Shown piece after piece: positions 11,253 through 29,818 of a stretch of DNA of 41,758 nt. Where the stretch lies: positions 1 to 41,758 of IMG/VR virus record IMGVR_UViG_3300045117_000300; one strand, given 5' to 3'. The translations under genes and the position numbers were made by a program. Each line of letters starts with the position of its first letter. Positions within the stretch are counted from its first letter, which is position 1. The DNA is from a virus. The notes beneath the pieces were generated by a model. That model ran no database searches. It saw nothing but the letters and a program-made list of their open reading frames with translations, and was not told where the DNA came from.

Positions 11253-12767
11253 ATGGCTACAATGACCCGTAGCTTAGGGGCAAACACAATAGAGGTCTAT
11301 AATGTTCGGAAAACTCTGGAATTCGCCAAGCCTAAGTTGGTATGAATGGATATGCCAACTCTAAATTCTCTCTAAATAACGGGAAATCAAGAACTGATAA
11401 TCCGATGGAAGGTAATAGAACCAAAAGCACTTTAACAAATGAATTAAAAGCATATTTAGCAGGAATATTTGATGGAGAGGGAAGTATTCATATAAATAAA
11501 ACTTCTTCTCCTCATTGTTTGAAATTATGGCAAAGAATAAGTCCTAATTATTCCTTGAATTGTGGAGTTACTAATTCGCATTTTGGAATATTAGAATTAT
11601 TCAAGAATAATTTTGGCGGTGGAATTTATGATAGAAAAGCGCATAGAGTTTATGATTATCGGATAGATAAAATCATAGCTAAAAATATGCTTGAAATATT
11701 ATTGCCTTATTTAATAATTAAAAAGGAACAGGCAAAAATAGCAGTTGAATTTCAAAATTCAATGACTATTACAGGTAAAAAAGTAAATGAAAATCAATTA
11801 CAATTCAGAGAAAAGTGCAGAAATAAGATTAAAAATCTTAATGGTTCTAATTACCACCAGCAGAGACTAAAAGAGAGAACAACTCAAGAAGTTGAAACGA
11901 TAGTCCGACACTCTTAGGAATAAGAGATTACAGAATAGATATCCCCAATTCGGGCAACCGGATTTGATATTGCGTAGAAAAGGTCAGACTGCTTCGTGGT
12001 TAAGATTTACGAAGCTGTCTATTCCTTCTTCTGTATTGGACGATAGCCCAACCTGGTCTCCTGCAACTGTATCTGAATCAACTGTTACCGCAACTCTGCA
12101 ACTTTGGGGAGCCGGAGTTGAATTAACAGAGGCTTTGGAGGAAACATCTTTCCTTGACCTTCCGGCAGAATACAAGAAACTGATAGGGCAAAATGCTGGT
12201 GAAACCATAAACGAAAAAGTAAGAGATGTGATTATAGCGGGAACTTCCGTCAACTATGCAAACGCAAAAGCAAACAGAATGGCTCTTATTTCAACTGACA
12301 CGGCAGATTTGGATGACTTTCTGGATACGGTTGAGAGCTTGGAAGTTCAGGATGCTCAACAGATTGGTGATGACTATGTTAGCATCATTTCTCCGTATGT
12401 AAAAACCAGGTTGATGAAAGATACAGCTTTCAGAGAGGCAGTCCGTTATCTCGGTAAAGAGAATTCTATCTTCACAGGCGAAGTGGCAAATATTGATGGG
12501 GTGAGGTTCGTGAGAACTTCAACCGCACCATCAGTTAGCAACTCCGGTTCAAACAATTCTGTTGCTAACCTGGAACAGTCTTTGGTAATCGGTGAAGGTG
12601 GATACGGAATTGCCAGACTTCTACCGGGTGATTTTGATGTGGTGGTAACTCCACCTGGCGGACATGGGGATGAATACAAGGTGAAAACATCAATCGCTTG
12701 GAAAGCCTACCTAAGAGCAGTTATATTAAATCAGAATTGGATAAGACGTCTTGAGAGTGCTCGTTAA
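11253..12767 (+). CDS. Major capsid protein, N4-gp56 family, interrupted by a group I intron
   Basis: Exon 1 is 11253-11341 and exon 2 is 11939-12767; joined they encode 305 residues in frame. Without splicing, translation would stop at a TGA at 11343. Across the join the protein reads P-K-L-V-Y-P-Q-F-G-Q, matching the pattern before the first strand of N4-gp56-type capsids (L-V-x-D-Q-F-G-Q). The downstream region T-L-Q-L-W-G-A-G-V-E-L-T-E-A also fits. A near-perfect ribosome binding site (AAAAGGAGGTGAG) lies 6 nt before the ATG. It forms the head shell. An intrinsic terminator follows at 12817, so expression can exceed that of genes further down. Confidence 0.88.
11342..11917 (+). CDS. Intron-encoded LAGLIDADG homing endonuclease
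   Basis: 191 residues if started at the ATG that forms the first bases of the intron; an in-frame ATG at 11405 (170 residues) is more plausible because the first 21 codons overlap P1, P3 and P4. One LAGLIDADG motif is visible at residues 39-48 (L-A-G-I-F-D-G-E-G-S), with acidic residues D44 and E46. Single-motif members normally act as homodimers that cut intron-less alleles and spread the intron. Lys/Asn/Ile-rich and AT-rich compared with the flanking capsid exons, fitting lateral acquisition. No clear ribosome binding site for either start. Confidence 0.88.
   Translation: MNGYANSKFSLNNGKSRTDNPMEGNRTKSTLTNELKAYLAGIFDGEGSIHINKTSSPHCLKLWQRISPNYSLNCGVTNSHFGILELFKNNFGGGIYDRKAHRVYDYRIDKIIAKNMLEILLPYLIIKKEQAKIAVEFQNSMTITGKKVNENQLQFREKCRNKIKNLNGSNYHQQRLKERTTQEVETIVRHS
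11342..11938 (+). mobile_element. Self-splicing group I intron with homing endonuclease
   Basis: 597-nt intron in the capsid gene. P1: the exon end AGTTGGT (11335-11341) pairs fully with GCCAACT (11354-11360), with the hallmark U-G wobble at the splice site. P10: GGATAT (11348-11353) pairs fully with the exon-2 start ATATCC (11939-11944). P3: TTCTCTC (11366-11372) with GAGAGAA (11873-11879). P7: GACTA (11865-11869) with TAGTC (11901-11905). P8 hairpin 11880-11894. P9 hairpin 11911-11926 with a GGAA tetraloop. The intron ends in the terminal G at 11938. The endonuclease frame fills the middle, probably the P6 loop. Splicing in vivo is inferred from structure and restored reading frame. Confidence 0.92.
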
Positions 12768-12816
12768 TAGGCTCTAAATCGCTTATTGACTAAGCAGTAA
12801 ATCTGATTTACAATTA

Positions 12817-12843
12817 GGAGGTAGAGAAATCTATCTCCTTTTT
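12817..12843 (+). terminator. Intrinsic terminator after the capsid gene
   Basis: A 9-bp stem (12817-12825 with 12830-12838, one G-U pair) closes a GAAA tetraloop and is followed by five T. It lies 50 bp after the capsid stop. It should limit read-through from the capsid promoter into the glycan cassette. Confidence 0.88.
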
Positions 12844-12845
12844 GT

Positions 12846-13176
12846 ATGGAAAGAATTTGCGCTAAATGCGGGAAAATATTTCATATAAAACCTTCACAGC
12901 TTAAAGTTAAAGGTGGAGGTAAATATTGTTCCAAGAATTGTCTTTATAGCCGAACTAAAATAGCAAAGATATGTTTGAATTGCGGAGTTTCTTTTATTAT
13001 TCCTCCTTCACGAAATAAAAAAGCTAAATATTGCTCAACTATTTGTCAGTATCAGAAACAAAATTAAATCTTTTTCTAAATATCCTAAATTGAGATTTGT
13101 TATGAAGAATGGTAGGACTTTATGTTATAAATGTCATAAAAGAACAAAGAATTATGGTTTCAAAGCGTTCAATTAA
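12846..13176 (+). pseudogene. Decayed HNH homing endonuclease with N-terminal zinc ribbons
   Basis: Bases 12846-13067 give a 73-residue frame with four CxxC-type pairs (C-A-K-C, C-S-K-N-C, C-L-N-C, C-S-T-I-C), like the zinc-binding N-terminus of some phage homing endonucleases. Just after its stop, in the next frame, bases ~13062-13176 encode I-K-S-F-S-K-Y-P-K-L-R-F and then N-G-R-T-L-C-Y-K-C-H-K-R-T. That is the usual C-terminal half of an HNH nuclease. The catalytic His-containing middle is missing, so an internal deletion plus frameshift has inactivated the gene. The N-terminal piece might still be translated as a small zinc protein. Confidence 0.7.
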
Positions 13177-13351
13177 AAGAATAAAAGAATTATCCGAAAT
13201 ACTCCTGCCTTTCAAGATAACTTTTCCTGTTACAATAGAAGGCGGAGTAAACCAGATTCACTTCTTTTTCCCTAAAGGTCAGGAAGTGGAATTGACTTAT
13301 GAGCAATATGAGTGTATCAGAAACAGCAGCTTTTCAGAATATCTCCCTTAG
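13154..13351 (+). CDS. Small hypothetical phage protein
   Basis: 65 residues: a basic N-terminus (K-R-S-I-K-R-I-K), then a beta-rich core (P-V-T-I-E-G-G ... F-F-F-P-K-G-Q-E-V-E-L-T). Small proteins of this kind often follow phage capsid genes; the role is unknown. It overlaps the last bases of the HNH remnant and the first bases of the next glycosyltransferase. No good ribosome binding site is seen before the ATG at 13154, so the original 5' end may have been altered when the HNH gene inserted or decayed. Confidence 0.5.
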   Translation: MVSKRSIKRIKELSEILLPFKITFPVTIEGGVNQIHFFFPKGQEVELTYEQYECIRNSSFSEYLP

Positions 13352-14375
13352 TTATTGGGGATATTTCACACCCTTTGGCGGATACGGAATTGCCAACTTT
13401 AATTGGGTAAAGCATCTTCTTCGTAAAGGAGTTAAAGTTTATCCTCATGCTAAATTTATGCCTGCCAGGGATTCTAAAGAGTGGAATATTCTTAATGAAG
13501 AAGAAAGATATATTGCTTTACTTCCATATCAACGGATGAAGGTCGGAATCATAGAAACAACTCCTTATGATTTCCATCTCATAGATAACGAAATAAAGAT
13601 AGCCAATACCATGATAGAGAATGATATGGTCGGTGAACCCTGGAAGCAGCAATGTAAAAGGATGAATCATATTATCGTTCCGAATAACTTTCAGAAGCGG
13701 TGCTTTGAGGAAGCAGGCTTCCGCAATGTAGTAGTTATCCCTCATGGAACTGAAGTTGAGAAATTCCCCTATTATGACCGGCCTAAAAGAGAGGTCTTTA
13801 CATTTGGTATTGTCGGATGGTTAAATGACAGGAAAGGAGTTTTTGAAGTGGTGAGAGCTTTTGCTTCAGAATTTGATAAAAATGAACCAGTCAGACTTAT
13901 CCTTAAATCTTCTAATCTTGCTTTTGGCTATTTTTCTAACTGGCAAGACAATAGAATTAGAACTATCAATAGACTTGTATCTCCAACCGACCTTAATCGG
14001 CTCTATCAGGAGATGGATTGTTTTGTCTTTCCTTCCAAGGCTGAAGGAGTGGGCCAGCCTCCCCGCGAAGCAATGGCAACCGGACTTCCGGTTATCCTTA
14101 CTAACTGGTCTGGACTTGAGGAGTTATGTAAAGTTGAGATTAGTTTTCCTTTACAAGTTAAAAAACTTGTTAAGGGAGCCAATCCCCAAGTCATTGAGCA
14201 ACCGGGAAATTGGGCAGAAATAGATATTGCCGAGCTTATGTACTGGATGAGATATGTCTATGAACATCAGGATGAAGCGAAAGAAAAGGGGAAAAAGGCT
14301 GCGGATTTCATCAGGCAGGAATTCTCTTGGGAGAAATGCGCCTGCCGATTAGCCACTTTTGTTTCTTTATTATGA
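13299..14375 (+). CDS. Glycosyltransferase, GT4 type (GT-B fold)
   Basis: 358 residues. The C-terminal half shows the GT4 pattern: a glycine-rich strand F-G-I-V-G-W-L-N-D-R-K-G-V, and an E-x7-E motif in A-E-G-V-G-Q-P-P-R-E-A that binds the nucleotide-sugar donor. The N-terminal half is the acceptor domain. It probably moves a sugar from a nucleotide-activated donor in the cytoplasm. First gene of a seven-gene run in which most neighbours overlap by 4 nt (ATGA). The start at 13299 overlaps the previous small gene; an in-frame ATG at 13308 is possible. Donor and acceptor cannot be deduced. Confidence 0.87.
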   Translation: MSNMSVSETAAFQNISLSYWGYFTPFGGYGIANFNWVKHLLRKGVKVYPHAKFMPARDSKEWNILNEEERYIALLPYQRMKVGIIETTPYDFHLIDNEIKIANTMIENDMVGEPWKQQCKRMNHIIVPNNFQKRCFEEAGFRNVVVIPHGTEVEKFPYYDRPKREVFTFGIVGWLNDRKGVFEVVRAFASEFDKNEPVRLILKSSNLAFGYFSNWQDNRIRTINRLVSPTDLNRLYQEMDCFVFPSKAEGVGQPPREAMATGLPVILTNWSGLEELCKVEISFPLQVKKLVKGANPQVIEQPGNWAEIDIAELMYWMRYVYEHQDEAKEKGKKAADFIRQEFSWEKCACRLATFVSLL

Positions 14376-15094
14376 AACTTTTAGTTACCGGCGGAAATGG
14401 ACTTTTGGGAACTGAACTTAAAAAGATTCTTTCTCCTGCTGTTATCTTTACCGATAGGGATGATGCCGATATAACCGATTTTCACCAGGTTGACAGAATG
14501 ATGAAGTTTTATCAGCCTGATGCGGTTTTGCACTTGGCAGCTTATACTTCTGTTAATTCTGCCCAGAATAATAAAAATCTCTGTTATGAAGTGAATGTTA
14601 TCGGTACCAGGAATGTGGCTATCCTTTCAAAACACTTAATCTATATGTCCACCGAATATATCTTTGACGGGGAAAAAGGGAATTATACGGAAGATGACTA
14701 TCCCAATCCTCTTAACTTTTATTCTCTGACAAAACTTCTCGGTGAATATGAAGCAGTTCAGGCAGAAAAATGCACCATTATCCGGACTCTTTTTAAGCCC
14801 AGGCCATATAAACATCCGCAATGTCCTGTGGATATGTGGACATCCGGAGGATATGTGGATGAGATAGCCGGAGAAATTAAAGAAGCGTTATTGCGTATTG
14901 ACAAACTGCCTGGGATTTTACATATTGGAATAGAGAGGATAAATCTTTTTGAATTGGCAAAGCAGACAAGACCGGATGTTTTGCCGATTGAGAGAAAAGA
15001 TTTATCAGTCAGGCTTCCAAAAGATACCAGTCTTAACACTAAAATTTGGGAATCTATAAAACATGATACCAGTCCTGTGTCCAACTATATCTGA
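14372..15094 (+). CDS. NAD(P)-dependent sugar reductase/epimerase, RmlD-like
   Basis: 240 residues of a short-chain dehydrogenase/reductase of the extended type. A Rossmann motif T-G-G-N-G-L-L-G lies at residues 6-13, followed by H-L-A-A-Y-T and the catalytic Y117-x3-K121 (Y-S-L-T-K). The closest remembered relatives are dTDP-4-dehydrorhamnose reductases, which reduce a 4-keto nucleotide sugar. The substrate here is not proven. The ATG at 14372 overlaps the preceding stop; a longer in-frame start at 14327 would lie inside the upstream gene. Works with the aminotransferase next to it to tailor a nucleotide sugar. Confidence 0.82.
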   Translation: MKLLVTGGNGLLGTELKKILSPAVIFTDRDDADITDFHQVDRMMKFYQPDAVLHLAAYTSVNSAQNNKNLCYEVNVIGTRNVAILSKHLIYMSTEYIFDGEKGNYTEDDYPNPLNFYSLTKLLGEYEAVQAEKCTIIRTLFKPRPYKHPQCPVDMWTSGGYVDEIAGEIKEALLRIDKLPGILHIGIERINLFELAKQTRPDVLPIERKDLSVRLPKDTSLNTKIWESIKHDTSPVSNYI

Positions 15095-16148
15095 AAAAAC
15101 AAAGCAGGAAATGATGAAAGTCCTAGATTCCGGTTGGTGGGGATACGGCCTGAAAACCATAGAATTTGAGAAAAGATTTGCCGATTATGTCGGAGCTAAA
15201 TTTGCTATAGGCGCAAACTCCGGGACTGCTGCTTTAGACCTTTGCCTCAAAGCCTACAATATCAAAGGCGGTGAACTTATAACTACCCCCATGACTTTTG
15301 TTTCCGATGCGATTGTCGGTGAATTTAACGGCATGGATGTAACTTTTGCCGATATAGATGAAGATACTCTTTGCATTGACCCGCAGGCAGTTGAGGTTAG
15401 TGAAAATACTAAAGCGATAATCGCGGTTGATTCGCATGGTAGGATTGCTGATATAGACAGCTTGCGGGCGAAATTCAAAGGATTGATTATTGAAGACGCT
15501 GCCCATGCGATGCTGACTCCCGGTGCCGGTAAAAAAGGAGATATAACTATCTGGTCATTTCAGGCAGTTAAAACCTTGCCAACTGGTGATGGCGGAATGG
15601 TAACAACCAATGACGAGAAAGTTTATAAACGCCTCCGGACTCTTACCTGGCTCGGAGTAGAAAAGCATACTTATGAAAGAGCGGAAGGCAAAAGATATAC
15701 CTGGGATTATGACATTACCCAGGCAGACGGTATAAAGGCTTACATGAATGATTTAACGGCTGTTATCGGTTTAGGACAACTTGATAGGCTTGAGGAGATG
15801 ACAGCCAAAAGAAGGGCAATACAGTGCGTCTATAACGATAATTTTAAGGATATTGATTTAATCAAAATTCCTCTTTTCTCCCACACAGTTCAGTATTACA
15901 CCATGAAGTGTGAAAAGAGAGATGAACTCTCTGATTTCCTTGCCTCAAAAGAGATTGCCACTTCAGTCCATTTTAAGCCTCTATCGGAGATGACTTACTG
16001 GAAAAAGGCGGTAAAAAGACCATTGCCTGTAACTGATAGAGTCTGGAAAGAACTTCTTACCCTTCCCTGCCATGATGCTCTGACCTGGACTCAAGTGGAA
16101 TATATCATTTCTATGGTCAGGGAATTTTATCTTTCCTACAATAAATGA
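15063..16148 (+). CDS. PLP-dependent sugar aminotransferase, DegT/DnrJ/EryC1 family
   Basis: 361 residues, a normal length for the family. These enzymes transfer an amino group to a keto group of a nucleotide-activated sugar. Visible features: G-A-N-S-G-T-A-A-L-D-L near residues 45-55, D-A-A-H-A in the cofactor region, and S-F-Q-A-V-K-T-L with the probable PLP-binding Lys170 followed by G-D-G-G-M. It overlaps the reductase gene by 32 nt. An amino-sugar branch implies that the phage makes or modifies an amino-deoxy sugar rather than only moving host sugars. Confidence 0.9.
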   Translation: MIPVLCPTISEKTKQEMMKVLDSGWWGYGLKTIEFEKRFADYVGAKFAIGANSGTAALDLCLKAYNIKGGELITTPMTFVSDAIVGEFNGMDVTFADIDEDTLCIDPQAVEVSENTKAIIAVDSHGRIADIDSLRAKFKGLIIEDAAHAMLTPGAGKKGDITIWSFQAVKTLPTGDGGMVTTNDEKVYKRLRTLTWLGVEKHTYERAEGKRYTWDYDITQADGIKAYMNDLTAVIGLGQLDRLEEMTAKRRAIQCVYNDNFKDIDLIKIPLFSHTVQYYTMKCEKRDELSDFLASKEIATSVHFKPLSEMTYWKKAVKRPLPVTDRVWKELLTLPCHDALTWTQVEYIISMVREFYLSYNK

Positions 16149-17014
16149 AAATACTCATCTACTACCGGCATTTCCCTGTAGCAATGGGAAAATTCTTCCA
16201 TTGGGCTTTGCTGGATTTAGGCCACGAAGTTTTTTCAGTCGGTTGCTATTCCGGCCCGACAATTCCCTGGGGAGATTTCAAGTATCCGGCTTATGATTTT
16301 CCGCCTGATTATGTTACTCCTGATATAGATTTTTCTCTGAAAGCTGTTTTGAGAAATATAGATTTCAAGCCTGATTTAATTATTCAGGCTTCTGATAATA
16401 CTTTCCTTTACGGAGAAGCTCCCTGCCGGAATATCGTTATCGGTACAGACCCTCATGTTGTGGATTACAAGCGGTTCCTGCAATACGCGGATGATTATTA
16501 TTCCATGCAAAAGTTCTATCTGGAAGGTTATCCTTTTGGCAGATGGCTTCCTTACGGTTATTATCCGCCTATCCATAATTTCCAGGAGAGGGAAATAATC
16601 TATGATGTGGTTTTTTCCGGACTTCAATATGAGCATCGGAAAGAAGTTTTGGAAGAAGTTAAAAAAAGAGGTTTCAGAGTTCTGAATGTCCTTGGGTTAA
16701 TTTATGAGGAATATAATAAGGCGTATAATCAGGGACTTATCGCTTTTAACTACTCTTCCAGGAGTGATTTACCGGCAAGATTTTGGGAAGGATTGGCAAT
16801 GAAAAGATGTGTCGTTACTAACAGGGTTCCTGATTTGAAGGAATTTGATATAAAAGAAGGCGAACATTATGTGGGTTTTGAAGGTAAAGATGAAGCTGTA
16901 GAAAAGTTGGTTTATTATTCCACTCATCCGGAAGAAGCCAAAAAGATAGCGGAAAAAGGGTATAATTGGGTTAAACCGCATACTTATCACAAGCGATGTA
17001 AAATATTCTTATGA
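16145..17014 (+). CDS. Glycosyltransferase, CgeB-like GT-B type
   Basis: 289 residues. The C-terminal part resembles the CgeB-type glycosyltransferase domain: V-V-F-S-G-L-Q-Y-E-H-R-K, then N-Y-S-S-R-S-D-L-P-A-R-F-W-E-G-L-A-M-K-R-C-V and a later H-Y-V-G-F-E. It overlaps the aminotransferase and the methyltransferase by 4 nt each. Proteins of this family sit in glycan clusters that decorate surface proteins or spores; the acceptor here is unknown. Confidence 0.78.
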   Translation: MKILIYYRHFPVAMGKFFHWALLDLGHEVFSVGCYSGPTIPWGDFKYPAYDFPPDYVTPDIDFSLKAVLRNIDFKPDLIIQASDNTFLYGEAPCRNIVIGTDPHVVDYKRFLQYADDYYSMQKFYLEGYPFGRWLPYGYYPPIHNFQEREIIYDVVFSGLQYEHRKEVLEEVKKRGFRVLNVLGLIYEEYNKAYNQGLIAFNYSSRSDLPARFWEGLAMKRCVVTNRVPDLKEFDIKEGEHYVGFEGKDEAVEKLVYYSTHPEEAKKIAEKGYNWVKPHTYHKRCKIFL

Positions 17015-17589
17015 GAGATTATAGATATATTGATGCTTATTTGGATGAGCTGCAAAACGATATTTATGCTCAACCTGTTGACCAACAACATAAAAACCAG
17101 ACGAAGGAGATATTCTATAAATGGATTGCTCACTATGCACAGATCAGACATATCAAAAATGCTTTAGATGTAGGTTGCGGACAGGGTACAGCTTTTGAAT
17201 TCTTCAAAGAATTTAACATTGAATATACCGGGATTACTCTGGGGGAAGATTATATTTACTGTAAAAACACTCTTCAGGAGAATGTAAAAGATTGGGATAT
17301 GCACATTCTCAATTTTCCGGATGCTTCTTTTGACCTTATCTTCGCCCGTCATGTTCTGGAACATTCACCAATGCCTCTTTTAGCTTTAATGGAATGGTAT
17401 AGAGTAAGTAGACAATATCTGATAGTGGTAACTCCTCATTGCGACAATGTAATACAAGGTGGTAAAAATCATTATTATATGCTTAATCCTATTCAATGGA
17501 AAGTTCTTTTTGAGCGTTCCAAGTGGCAGGTTATCAAAGAAGATTATACCGACCCGTCAGAATTCAGGTTTATGCTGACTAAACTATGA
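17011..17589 (+). CDS. SAM-dependent class I methyltransferase
   Basis: 192 residues. Motif I A-L-D-V-G-C-G-Q-G-T lies near residues 50-59, and a post-motif segment F-D-L-I-F-A-R-H-V-L-E-H precedes the active-site region. These are hallmarks of small-molecule methyltransferases of the UbiE/sugar type. In this cassette the likely target is a sugar hydroxyl, carboxyl or amino group. It overlaps both neighbours by 4 nt, so it belongs to the same translationally coupled run. I see no DNA-methyltransferase motif such as DPPY. Confidence 0.85.
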   Translation: MRDYRYIDAYLDELQNDIYAQPVDQQHKNQTKEIFYKWIAHYAQIRHIKNALDVGCGQGTAFEFFKEFNIEYTGITLGEDYIYCKNTLQENVKDWDMHILNFPDASFDLIFARHVLEHSPMPLLALMEWYRVSRQYLIVVTPHCDNVIQGGKNHYYMLNPIQWKVLFERSKWQVIKEDYTDPSEFRFMLTKL

Positions 17590-18269
17590 AAATTATAGTC
17601 GGAGTCATTACTTTGAATGAGGAAAAGAATATCGGTCTGTTCTGTGAACGGCATGATTTTGCCGACAGGATAATTGTTTCAGACGGCGGTTCTACGGATA
17701 ATACTCTTGAGATAGTCAAAAAGTATCCTCATACTGAATCTTACTTTTTTCCGGAACAAAGAATAATTCCCCATGACCCTGTGGGATTTATCAATCCGGA
17801 AGGAGGACATCTGAATTCTCTCCTGGAAATTATCTATCAACAAAAGCCTGACTGGATAATACTTTCCGATGCAGACCAATTTCCCAATAAGCCTCTTCAA
17901 AGAGATATTCGCACCATTATGGAGAATACCGGCGCACCAGCCATTTTCACTTACCGGCTGAATCTTTGGGGAAAAGATATGTATTTTCCTAAAATGATGC
18001 CTCTTGACTGGACAGTAATGTGGGCTTTCAAGGGTACGGAAAAGATTTGGTTTGAGGATAAAGAGATTCATCCTAAGATTTTCGGTATTCCCCAGGCAAA
18101 CATGACTCTTGGTTTACCTTATAGTTTAGTTCATAATATGTTTTCGGATGAGGAAACAGTTGAGCGTAAGTTAAAACATTATGAGGCATGGGGTTATCCG
18201 CAGGTGCATCCTCTTCATTGGGAATATGCACCTCCGGAGAAACTTCCTGAATGGGCGCAAGTATGGTAA
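17586..18269 (+). CDS. Glycosyltransferase family 2 (GT-A fold)
   Basis: 227 residues. The N-terminal strand I-V-G-V-I-T-L-N-E-E is followed by R-I-I-V-S-D-G-G-S-T-D-N-T and a metal-binding D-A-D (in I-L-S-D-A-D-Q-F-P), the standard GT2 donor-site motifs. Length fits a single catalytic domain without membrane segments. It overlaps the next gene by 19 nt. Donor unknown. Confidence 0.87.
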   Translation: MKIIVGVITLNEEKNIGLFCERHDFADRIIVSDGGSTDNTLEIVKKYPHTESYFFPEQRIIPHDPVGFINPEGGHLNSLLEIIYQQKPDWIILSDADQFPNKPLQRDIRTIMENTGAPAIFTYRLNLWGKDMYFPKMMPLDWTVMWAFKGTEKIWFEDKEIHPKIFGIPQANMTLGLPYSLVHNMFSDEETVERKLKHYEAWGYPQVHPLHWEYAPPEKLPEWAQVW

Positions 18270-20305
18270 GCATCATTCTGCCTGTCTGGAATCATTACAG
18301 TGATTTGACAGAATCTTTCATCAATAATCTCTTTGCTAATACGGAAGAAGAGTTTGAGCTTATTGTGGTTGATAACGGCTCAACTGATGAAACACGCCTT
18401 AAATTAAGAAACTTTAAGGGTATTAAATATATCCGGTCAGAGAAGAATCTTGGTTTTAGCGGAGGCAACAATCTGGGATATAAGCACGCTAAGGGAGAAT
18501 ATATCTGTTTTATCTCAAATGATGTGATTATCAGCAGTAAAGATTGGCTGAAAAGACTGGTGGAAGAATCTGACAGTTGTTTGACCGGCCCGATGCTGGT
18601 TGATTTTAACGAATACACTTCTTTCCGTTACCGGACTACTCCCTATATCACCGGCTTTTGTGTTTTTGGTTCCCGTATTCTGTTTGAGAAAGTTAAACAG
18701 AACGATATGATTTGGGATGAGAATTTCGGCAAGGCATATTTTGAGGATGTGGATTTATCAGTAAAAGCAGTTAAAGCTGGTTTCAAGATTAAAGAGATAA
18801 AAGGATTAGGTTTAACCCATCTTATTTCCAAAAGCAGCGACCAGATAAACATCCAGGAGCAATTTCAATATACGAGGAAAGTTTGGTGGAATAAAATGTA
18901 TCAGTTTGAGAGAGGAGACAAACTGCGGATTGTCTTTTACTGTCCAGGTAATTATCAATTCAGTGATGGGGACTTTGAAGGTAAAGGAGTTGGCGGAGCA
19001 GAGGCTTCTCTCATTCTTCTTTGCCGGGAATTAGTTAAATTGGGATATATAGTTGATATTTATAATAACAATAATATACAAGGTAATTATCATGGGGTGA
19101 ATTATAATCATATATCTAATTATCATCCTGATGAATATGCAGATATATTTATTTTATTCCGTTCTTCTTATGAGTATCTCCAATTTGTTAATAGCCCATT
19201 GAAGATATTTTGGTCATGCGACCAATATACCAGTAATGATTGGGGAATTGCTATTATCCCATATATCCATAAGGTAATTGCTATTTCTGATTATCATAAA
19301 GATTATTTATTAAAGCATTATTCATTCAGAAAGGAAGATATTTATGTATTGGATTTGGGAGTTAATAAAGAGGATTACTTAAATTCGTTGCCTAAACAGA
19401 AAGGTAAATTGATATATTGCTCTGTGCCAAGAAGAGGTTTAGTTTATCTTAAAGATATATTTCCGAAGATAAGAGAACAAGTACCCTATGCGGAATTGTA
19501 TATTACTTCAGATTATCGGCTTTGGGGAGCAGAGGCTTTATCTGAAGAATTTACTGCTGTTTTCGGCACTATGGAAGAGGTACACTATTTAGGGAAGATT
19601 CCGCGAAGTGAGTTGATTTATCACCAGCTTACTTCCGAACTTATGATTTATCCCTGCGATTACGATGAGAATTTTTGTATTTCCGCGATGGAATGTATTT
19701 CAGCCGGTACTCCCCCGATTACCACGCTAATCGGAGCTTTGGAAACAACTGTTAGTAATACCGGAGTATTGATAAAAGGTCTGCCGAAGGAACTTAGGTA
19801 TCAGGAACAGTTTATCAGTGAAACGGTAAGACTGCTAAAGGATGATAATGCCCGAAATATATTGTCAGGACAGTGTAAAAAGAGAGGGATTACCTATTAT
19901 TGGGAAAATTTAACCAAAGAGAAATGGTTGCCGTTATTTGATATACTTTTTAAGGAGGCTAAACTTATGTATAAATCTAATTATTGTACTGTCTGTAAAG
20001 AGAAATTCCCCAATGCTTTTGAGTTTTTTAAGCATAGAAACCAACAACACTTTGAGAAAGAGAAATATAAGGATGCGATTCCTGCGCCAAAAGGTGTAGT
20101 TACCGGTGGAGTACCGCAATTATTTACCCTGATTAAGACTAGAATGGATGTGGATGTTTCAATCGGTAGTAAATTCTGGAAGGGAAAAGAGCTCCTGGTA
20201 CCGCAGGAATACGCATCAGAAGTGGTAAGATTGATAAATGAATTTGCTAAACAAGCAGGTCTTGAATCAATAATTGAAAGTGCACAGCTTCGCCATGTCG
20301 TATAG
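18251..20305 (+). CDS. Two-domain glycosyltransferase (GT2 plus GT4) fused to a C2H2-like zinc-finger tail
   Basis: 684 residues. Residues ~1-215: GT2 domain (I-I-L-P-V-W-N, V-V-D-N-G-S-T-D-E, Y-F-E-D-V-D). Residues ~225-560: GT4 domain with G-V-G-G-A-E and an E-x7-E motif (D-E-N-F-C-I-S-A-M-E). Residues ~573-684: an unrelated tail starting with C-x2-C-x12-H-x4-H. Inside the gene, AAGGAGG stands 8 nt before an in-frame ATG at 19967, so a separate 112-residue protein may also be made. A start at 18263 (M-V-S-I-I) is also possible. Late promoter copy C overlaps the last codons. It could add two sugars in sequence. Confidence 0.85.
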   Translation: MGASMVSIILPVWNHYSDLTESFINNLFANTEEEFELIVVDNGSTDETRLKLRNFKGIKYIRSEKNLGFSGGNNLGYKHAKGEYICFISNDVIISSKDWLKRLVEESDSCLTGPMLVDFNEYTSFRYRTTPYITGFCVFGSRILFEKVKQNDMIWDENFGKAYFEDVDLSVKAVKAGFKIKEIKGLGLTHLISKSSDQINIQEQFQYTRKVWWNKMYQFERGDKLRIVFYCPGNYQFSDGDFEGKGVGGAEASLILLCRELVKLGYIVDIYNNNNIQGNYHGVNYNHISNYHPDEYADIFILFRSSYEYLQFVNSPLKIFWSCDQYTSNDWGIAIIPYIHKVIAISDYHKDYLLKHYSFRKEDIYVLDLGVNKEDYLNSLPKQKGKLIYCSVPRRGLVYLKDIFPKIREQVPYAELYITSDYRLWGAEALSEEFTAVFGTMEEVHYLGKIPRSELIYHQLTSELMIYPCDYDENFCISAMECISAGTPPITTLIGALETTVSNTGVLIKGLPKELRYQEQFISETVRLLKDDNARNILSGQCKKRGITYYWENLTKEKWLPLFDILFKEAKLMYKSNYCTVCKEKFPNAFEFFKHRNQQHFEKEKYKDAIPAPKGVVTGGVPQLFTLIKTRMDVDVSIGSKFWKGKELLVPQEYASEVVRLINEFAKQAGLESIIESAQLRHVV
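19967..20305 (+). CDS. Possible separate zinc-finger protein from an internal start
   Basis: In frame with the upstream glycosyltransferase, the ATG at 19967 has AAGGAGG at an ideal distance, and the sequence after it no longer resembles a glycosyltransferase. The product would be 112 residues. It has a C2H2-like finger (Y-C-T-V-C near residue 7, H-R-N-Q-Q-H near residue 25), a flexible stretch, and an alpha/beta C-terminus. Either the stop between two genes was lost, or both a fusion and a short protein are produced. Function unknown; RNA or DNA binding is a guess from the finger. Confidence 0.45.
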   Translation: MYKSNYCTVCKEKFPNAFEFFKHRNQQHFEKEKYKDAIPAPKGVVTGGVPQLFTLIKTRMDVDVSIGSKFWKGKELLVPQEYASEVVRLINEFAKQAGLESIIESAQLRHVV

Positions 20306-20333
20306 ACAAAATTAAATTAGTTGTTCTATTATA
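20295..20333 (+). promoter_or_regulatory. Putative late promoter, copy C (tail block)
   Basis: ATGTCGTATAGAC, 13 bp, TTGTTCTATTATA, the same layout as the other three copies. The -10-like TATTAT is at 20327-20332. It overlaps the end of the glycosyltransferase gene (stop at 20303-20305). The start site is expected near 20340, directly at the ribosome binding site of the next gene (leader about 14 nt). Confidence 0.75.
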
Positions 20334-20353
20334 GAGGAAAGGAGGTGAAAAAG

Positions 20354-20821
20354 ATGAATAAAATCTTATCCCAATTCTTCAAAGAATTTCCCTTTAAGGA
20401 TAGAATGGTAATTGATGCAAATTGCCATATCGTTTTAAGAGGCTCTGATGGAAGGATTAAAGAGGAAAGAACAATTCATAATACTGTAACTACAGCAGGA
20501 AAGAACGGAGCAGCAGACCAGGCTCTTGCTTCTCCAACATTAAATAAACCTACACACATGGCTGTTGGTACCGGTTCACCTTCAGCAACTGCACTTGGAA
20601 CTGAACTTGATAGAAATGCTTTAACTTCAAAAACCAGGTCTAACGCAATCATCACAATGGTAGGTGATTGGGCAGCCGGGGATGGAACGGGAGCCTTGAC
20701 GGAAGCCGGTATTTTTGATGCGGCGACAGCCGGCAATATGTGGACTTCTGCTTCTTTCTCTGTAATTAACAAAGGTGCTAACGATACATTGCAGATAACT
20801 TGGACATTAACTTACGCATAA
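20354..20821 (+). CDS. Phage tail or neck structural protein
   Basis: 155 residues. The stretch L-N-K-P-T-H-M-A-V-G-T-G, then T-A-L-G-T-E-L-D-R, L-T-E-A-G-I-F-D-A and T-L-Q-I-T-W-T-L-T is a pattern seen in a widespread small phage structural protein found beside tail-fibre genes. The family's exact place in the virion is not settled to my knowledge. The start at 20354 follows GGAGGTGA; an upstream in-frame TTG at 20321 lies inside the promoter and is rejected. First gene after late promoter C, so made late. Confidence 0.72.
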   Translation: MNKILSQFFKEFPFKDRMVIDANCHIVLRGSDGRIKEERTIHNTVTTAGKNGAADQALASPTLNKPTHMAVGTGSPSATALGTELDRNALTSKTRSNAIITMVGDWAAGDGTGALTEAGIFDAATAGNMWTSASFSVINKGANDTLQITWTLTYA

Positions 20822-29380: not shown

Positions 29381-29818
29381 ATGTTTATTAAAGGTATACC
29401 TAAAACTGAAGAATGGAAAAAGAAAGTTTTTACTCCCGAATATGCTGTAAAAATGAGTTTAATAATGAAAGGCAAACAAAATTCTTTAGGGTATAAACAA
29501 CCTTTAGAAGTTATTGAAAAAAGAGTTAGTCAATTTCGTGGGGAAAATCATTGGGGATTTAATGGACAAGATTGGCGTTATTGGAAAAAACAAGCTCTAT
29601 TAAGAGATAATTATACTTGTCAATCTTGTGGATTAAAGGAGTCTGAAATAATGGAAGTAGATCATATCCTTTCTAAAAGTTTATATCCTGGTCTTAAATT
29701 TGCATTAGAAAATCTAATTACTTTATGTCCTAATTGTCATAGAAGAAAAACAATTCGGGATATTAAAAATAGGGTTATTAAATTCAAACCTAAAAAGATA
29801 ACTTTATTGGAGGCATAA
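29381..29818 (+). CDS. Free-standing HNH homing endonuclease (NUMOD3-like N-terminus)
   Basis: 145 residues. The N-terminal half has K-G-I-P-K-T-E-E-W-K and a second K-G-K-Q-N-S-L-G-Y, resembling NUMOD3 DNA-binding repeats. The C-terminal half carries the HNH core: C-Q-S-C-G near residue 83, V-D-H near residue 95, L-E-N-L-I-T-L-C-P-N-C-H near residues 108-119. Such enzymes nick or cut DNA to spread themselves between related phages. It lies between the large tail protein and the lysis genes with no host gene split. It is Lys/Asn-rich and AT-rich relative to neighbours, fitting recent entry. No ribosome binding site seen. Confidence 0.87.
   Translation: MFIKGIPKTEEWKKKVFTPEYAVKMSLIMKGKQNSLGYKQPLEVIEKRVSQFRGENHWGFNGQDWRYWKKQALLRDNYTCQSCGLKESEIMEVDHILSKSLYPGLKFALENLITLCPNCHRRKTIRDIKNRVIKFKPKKITLLEA

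Follow-up and report, generated by a model that had tools for sequence, protein, structure and literature searches.

Glycosylation of virus particles by virus-encoded enzymes is already known in mycobacteriophages and in chloroviruses. In mycobacteriophages (Che8, Rita, cluster O), glycosyltransferase (GT) and O-methyltransferase genes are present, and glycans are reported on capsid or tail proteins (Freeman et al. 2023, as cited in PMC11600133 and PMC11256854). In chlorovirus PBCV-1 the virion glycan is built by viral GTs (A064R and others), among them a multi-domain enzyme that also carries a sugar methyltransferase domain (PMC7019647). We analyzed a sugar-gene cassette at positions 13299-20305 of an uncultivated phage, IMG/VR record IMGVR_UViG_3300045117_000300, the whole 41,758-bp stretch of which is called the window below. 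Like the mycobacteriophages, this phage has GT genes and a probable sugar methyltransferase gene in its structural region. In contrast to them, its cassette adds sugar-synthesis genes (a reductase and an aminotransferase), its first GT gene directly follows the capsid gene, and the system is known here from genes alone. The likeness is functional only: the first GT gave 139 matches among phage records at E≤1e-5, none of them from a Mycobacterium phage. With PBCV-1, a eukaryotic virus with an unrelated capsid and unrelated genes, the likeness is one of mechanism only. Sequence comparison led us to conclude that the cassette is probably an island for virion glycosylation that is tied to the capsid gene.

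The tie between the first GT and the gene of the major capsid protein (MCP) was examined in the 80 best IMG/VR loci from a profile of the first GT. The proteins encoded upstream were identified by a capsid hidden Markov model and by their similarity to ten representatives; PHROGs assigns nine of these to major head proteins (phrog_283/267, 138, 3990) and one to phrog_3116, function unassigned. With the phrog_3116 group left out, 62 of the 80 loci have a recognised MCP, and the GT was found 57-1322 nt downstream of it on the same strand in 62/62. The phrog_3116 group contributes 7 further loci, with the GT adjacent in 6, which brings the combined total to 68/69. Counting only open reading frames (ORFs) of at least 100 amino acids (aa), the GT comes first behind the capsid gene at 56 of these 69 loci and second at 10; for an ORF picked at random from the same loci, first or second place would be expected in about 30%. 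The MCPs of the linked loci fall into four PHROG groups (1357, 283/267, 138 and 3990), which argues that the linkage outlasts a change of capsid type. Because the loci lack independence, weight should be given to the number of MCP PHROG groups, four or more, and not to a P-value. At 39/69 loci with enough downstream sequence, at least one further GT, methyltransferase or sugar gene like those of the window was present. A second and partly independent line comes from the DegT aminotransferase, which lies 2.5-6.1 kb downstream of the MCP gene, on the same strand, in 10/10 viral loci with a recognisable MCP; the MCP groups of the DegT-bearing loci include phrog_1328 and 267. It was also seen that the capsid protein of another DegT-carrying lineage (L017, 3606-4718) has an apparent insert at residues ~138-218 matching tail-fibre-type PHROGs.

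The cassette consists of seven intact genes and occupies 7007 bp, or 16.8% of the record, in the order GT4, RmlD-like reductase, DegT aminotransferase, second GT, methyltransferase, GT2 and GT2-GT4 fusion (Table 1). The first-pass annotation had described seven genes in this order filling about 17% of the genome, and Pfam, PHROGs and the catalytic motifs bear this out; its count of five transferase domains in four GT genes likewise agrees with Pfam and PHROGs. By motif inspection, EX7E was seen in two GT-B domains and DxD in the GT2. The reductase carries the Rossmann GxxGxxG, ST[DE]Y and YxxxK, and the methyltransferase carries DxGCGxG. The DegT protein is full-length (PF01041 positions 2-359 of 360) with the PLP-lysine context WSFQAVK, and its relatives in the PDB comprise 3-aminotransferases, 4-aminotransferases and inosose aminotransferases. 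Concerning the C-terminal substrate-binding region of the reductase, Pfam covers positions 1-148 of the 287 of the model, and the alignment to PDB 2ggs runs to residue 212 of 241. The start of this gene was corrected to ATG 14372 from TTG 14327, which gives an ATGA overlap of 4 nt with the preceding GT. With this start, 4/6 junctions are 4-nt overlaps; the remaining two measure 32 nt and 19 (or 7) nt. No membrane segment was predicted in any cassette protein (maximum 19-residue hydropathy 1.44), and no flippase, polymerase or membrane-anchored GT was found in the cassette.

Cassette contents were compared among close relatives with ten phages (G001-G010; capsid identity 64-82%) obtained in a scan with the capsid protein. 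Eight of the ten retain the first GT at the corresponding position (42-54% identity), while the distal genes are exchanged. In G002 there are two methyltransferases, several GTs, a DegT of another kind (29%), a cupin (FdtA-like, weak) and an epimerase; G003 encodes GT2 enzymes together with a methyltransferase that matches PF04989 rhamnosyl O-methyltransferase; G005 and G006 share the second GT and the fusion GT, with extra methyltransferases added. The contig of G004 ends within the first GT. G009 lacks the cassette: its capsid gene and the structural gene that follows are ~600 bp apart, and no GT lies between them. Beyond these phages, relatives of the DegT protein at 63-80% occur in 17 viral contigs, and the same cassette gene order recurs in L026 and L056. 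The earlier view that a cassette this complete is unusual in a 41-kb genome did not hold: similar or larger islands are found in most close relatives and in many other contigs of ~40 kb, and the cassette itself is missing nucleotide-sugar activation and the 4,6-dehydratase.

Of the readings considered, self-decoration has the best support: the first GT is linked to the capsid gene in unrelated capsid families, and no membrane segments were predicted in the cassette products. Glycosylation of the virion would explain why the cassette is linked to the capsid gene and placed among structural genes, why its enzymes are soluble and why there is distal swapping, which we read as a change of the glycan on a constant acceptor. 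The enzymes would act in the host cytosol during late expression. From a 4-keto-6-deoxy nucleotide sugar made by the host, the RmlD-like reductase and DegT would produce 6-deoxy donors, amino-deoxy donors or both; the first GT would put the first sugar on a head protein, either the capsid protein or the small protein encoded at 13154-13351; the other four GT domains would then extend the glycan, and the methyltransferase would cap it.

Since neither a sugar nucleotidyltransferase nor a 4,6-dehydratase is among the recognised genes of the phage, the cassette must draw on a 4-keto-6-deoxy nucleotide sugar of the host. The DegT and RmlD-like reductase genes lie within ~1.3 kb of each other, in either order, in 12/17 viral loci and 9/9 bacterial-genome loci, which argues that the two enzymes work together. 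In three Nomurabacteria loci the pair stands beside rmlA, rmlC and rmlB, which makes a host 4-keto-6-deoxy nucleotide sugar the likely input. These rmlA-rmlC-rmlB-GT2-DegT-reductase clusters contain the same adjacent pair, with DegT 71-74% identical; unlike the window cassette, they are chromosomal surface-sugar loci with their own rmlA/B/C. Because reductase and aminotransferase would each use up a keto sugar, the cassette may yield one product or two: two sugars may be made from one precursor, or two keto positions may be used in sequence. The first-pass annotation had suggested that the phage decorates its own capsid or tail with a methylated amino sugar. Self-decoration stands as the best-supported part of that claim. 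The sugar named is a plausible product, but its identity is unsupported, given a host-dependent pathway with one or two possible products.

The first-pass annotation had omitted the conserved small gene between the capsid gene and the first GT. Its homologues or positional counterparts occur in G001-G008, G010, L026, L056 and L072, syntenic with the first GT, and it is missing in the GT-less relative G009. No Pfam or PHROG match was obtained for the small protein, and its structure model is a low-confidence beta-beta-beta-alpha fold. In the window and several relatives a small domain also stands at the C-terminus of the GT2-GT4 protein, in most preceded by a zinc finger; the GT2-GT4 architecture is the same in G005 and L056, L026 has the fusion with the C-terminal domain, and in L072 this domain is a separate ORF. 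PDB profile searches gave no convincing match for either the small protein or the C-terminal domain. Homology between the two was considered but is not supported: profile comparison gave a probability of 4.5%, and their models have common low-significance Foldseek matches, none at E<0.001. Unrelated small domains are fused to the GT N-terminus in L118, L104, L099 and others. In the phrog_283 capsid lineage (L118 5710-6000, L102, L096, L132, others) the N-terminal domain has an NPxGRIV motif, and in the phrog_138 lineage (L099, L140) a different small domain is found at this position. That the NPxGRIV domains are the same as the small domains of the window was rejected on present data (hhalign probability <2%). 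Small domains of these kinds could target GTs to the head, although kinship among them is unsupported by the comparisons.

Several points weigh against virion glycosylation. In this group of phages it is predicted from genes, and no glycan has been detected on any virion. The 62/62 adjacency was measured for one GT family only. The nearest GTs of cultured phages are at most ~31% identical, and no cultured isolate with the same MCP-GT arrangement was found; in Streptomyces phage Karimac the GT relative lies away from the head genes and does not adjoin the capsid gene. A site behind the capsid gene where accessory genes commonly insert could also produce the adjacency. Finally, the occurrence of the same DegT-reductase pair in bacterial surface-sugar clusters fits remodelling of the host surface too.

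Such remodelling, in which polysaccharide or S-layer glycans are altered so that superinfection is blocked or, in a lysogen, the adhesion of the host is changed, is the strongest competitor, though we consider it rather unlikely. Apart from the Nomurabacteria clusters, it is favoured by a sister phage that sits in a bacterial chromosome and by a report of Patescibacteria phages with O-antigen nucleotide-sugar genes, rmlD-like and related genes among them (PMC12911398). Those were read as auxiliary metabolic genes modifying the host surface; the genes of the window, in contrast, belong to a capsid-linked GT island. The known O-antigen/serotype-conversion system gtrABC has a membrane GtrA flippase and a membrane-anchored GtrB and sits beside integrase/attP, whereas the window cassette encodes proteins with no strongly hydrophobic segment, is without flippase, polymerase or membrane-anchored GT, and is flanked by capsid and fibre genes; the only GtrB-like match is a weak one, in the GT2 catalytic part of the fusion GT (phrog_841, E 3e-7). 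No integrase was recognised among the phage genes scanned. Blocking superinfection would call for earlier action than a late gene position allows, and remodelling leaves unexplained why the first GT follows a capsid gene and not an integrase. The capsid linkage, together with the swapping of distal genes among close relatives, favours glycosylation of the virion head over remodelling of the host surface.

Less probable still is that the sugars are placed on tail fibres or receptor-binding proteins, not on the head, and tune adsorption. The gene at the distal border has weak head and fibre matches and is followed by a tail-fibre-like gene, and in Microbacterium phage Magritte a distant relative of the first GT adjoins the major tail protein gene. 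However, the linkage is on the capsid side, and the first GT is the nearest gene to the capsid gene in most lineages. The remaining two explanations fit poorly. The cassette could be passive cargo, sugar genes acquired from hosts at a site where insertions are tolerated and not under selection for any function, and the highly variable distal content and the cassette-free G009 agree with this; we regard it as very improbable, because the ORFs are without exception intact and carry their catalytic motifs, several lineages conserve the first GT, the order is the same in L026 and L056, and 17% of a compact genome is taken up. Glycosylation of phage DNA bases against restriction, as GTs of phage T4 perform, is the least probable, since among the genes scanned, some small ORFs excepted, no modified-pyrimidine synthesis gene of the DNA-hypermodification type (hydroxymethylase, thymidylate-synthase-like or kinase gene) was recognised and since a set of several GTs, a methyltransferase and an aminotransferase would not be needed for it.

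The host of the phage was approached through its relatives. The closest gene-for-gene match, L056, is contig JACRNH010000024.1 of a metagenome-assembled genome of Candidatus Collierbacteria (Patescibacteria); it shares the capsid, small protein, GT4, reductase, DegT, GT, methyltransferase and fusion GT. The first part of this contig encodes rpoB, rpoC, metG and argS (read from translations). At ~92 kb the GC content changes from ~0.40 to ~0.50, and phage genes then run to the contig end (~124.7 kb), with no tRNA at the junction. The stretch from ~92 to 124.7 kb is probably a prophage with one end missing; the alternative is an assembly chimera. The same Collierbacteria genome has an rmlB above the curated cut-off. 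The DegT relatives in bacterial genomes are all from Patescibacteria (9/9, 71-78% identity; one locus is the Collierbacteria prophage), and since these are the closest cellular homologues, a host in that group is somewhat favoured. MCP-related genes are rare in sampled Patescibacteria genomes (3/380, 1/374, 2/384 and 1/380 with different queries), so the assignment rests mainly on one contig and on DegT kinship. Distant capsid genes with a GT2 gene ~0.6-1.3 kb downstream were also observed in two Patescibacteria genomes, G262 (L070) and G145 (L071).

As to the genome itself, 133 bp are common to both ends of the record with one mismatch, so it is probably near complete. A search of phage records with the cassette at the DNA level gave no match, and single-sequence scans of IMG/VR with the portal protein and with the reductase found no relatives. 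Bacillus phage Page (Pagevirus) has the same head-gene order, a distant MCP (27%) and a terminator after it; unlike the window phage, it has no GT there. The capsid gene of the window is split by ~600 nt holding a LAGLIDADG ORF (11342-11917; PF00961, E 4e-8), and is uninterrupted in seven relatives. Rfam at E≤1 gave no group I or group II intron, so that the interruption, if it is spliced out, would be an intron of a type not recognised. Two small HNH/zinc-type ORFs are inserted between late genes, at 12846-13067, between the capsid terminator and the cassette, and at 29381-29818. Homologues of the border gene occur in G002, G003 and G009. The first-pass annotation placed the cassette between a capsid terminator and a tail promoter; both patterns exist, but neither terminator-like nor promoter-like sites are more numerous than in shuffled sequence, so that late expression, which we infer, rests on gene position.

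Table 1. Features of the cassette and its flanks in the window
Feature	Position	Strand	Basis and remarks
Major capsid protein, putative exon 1	11253-11342		boundaries from reading frames and 7 uninterrupted relatives
Major capsid protein, putative exon 2	11940..12767	+	ORF listed from TTG 11964; phrog_1357 major head protein, E 3e-33
Terminator-like hairpin behind capsid gene	12816..12839	+	10-bp stem, TTTTGT tail
Small protein, 65 aa, between capsid gene and first GT	13154..13351	+	ORF listed from 13109
First GT, GT-B (GT4-type, phrog_2170)	13299..14375	+	PF13692, 4e-13; EX7E at residues 249-257
RmlD-like short-chain reductase, 240 aa	14372..15094	+	PF04321 RmlD_sub_bind, 1e-36; PDB 2ggs, E 3e-30; motifs
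DegT/DnrJ/EryC1/StrS pyridoxal-phosphate (PLP)-dependent sugar aminotransferase	15063..16148	+	PF01041, 2e-81; PDB sugar aminotransferases
Second GT-B glycosyltransferase (Glyco_trans_1_2)	16145..17014	+	Pfam, 9e-17; 46% in G005, 55% in L056
S-adenosylmethionine methyltransferase (Methyltransf_11), probable sugar O-/N-methyltransferase	17011..17589	+	Pfam, 4e-14; 64% homologue at same place in L056
GT2 glycosyltransferase with DxD	17586..18269	+	Glycos_transf_2, 8.5e-7
GT2-GT4 two-domain GT	18251..20305	+	Glycos_transf_2, 1e-23, and Glycos_transf_1, 3e-9; C2H2-like zinc finger at residues 579-600, small C-terminal domain
Promoter-like site TAGACA-18-TATTAT before next structural gene	20303..20332	+	sequence pattern
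Next structural gene, distal border	20321..20821	+	phrog_5417; weak phrog_240 head protein; weak PF23140 Gp80 fibre

What appears to be new is that, in uncultivated phages, a single GT family is tightly linked to the capsid gene whatever the capsid type; no paper describing this was found in a literature search that left subscription journals largely outside. A probable Patescibacteria case appears to be new as well. On a bolder and less likely reading, uncultivated tailed phages may possess a dedicated and widespread system for capsid glycosylation, consisting of a GT4-type enzyme co-inherited with unrelated capsid genes, small phage-type head-targeting domains (adjacent or fused to GTs) and an exchangeable glycan-building module. 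In Patescibacteria phages the added sugars may copy those of the host surface, because the DegT-reductase pair is common to host surface clusters. A sugar coating of the particle has been shown in few cultured phages only. That a GT stays beside the capsid gene across capsid families suggests that glycosylation of the head is common and modular in uncultivated phages, probably including those of Patescibacteria. A capsid-adjacent GT could thus serve as a simple genomic marker to predict head glycosylation, and the first GT and the capsid protein are offered as a concrete candidate pair of enzyme and acceptor. Glycosylation of this kind would matter for phage evasion of recognition, adherence to surfaces or mimicry of hosts.

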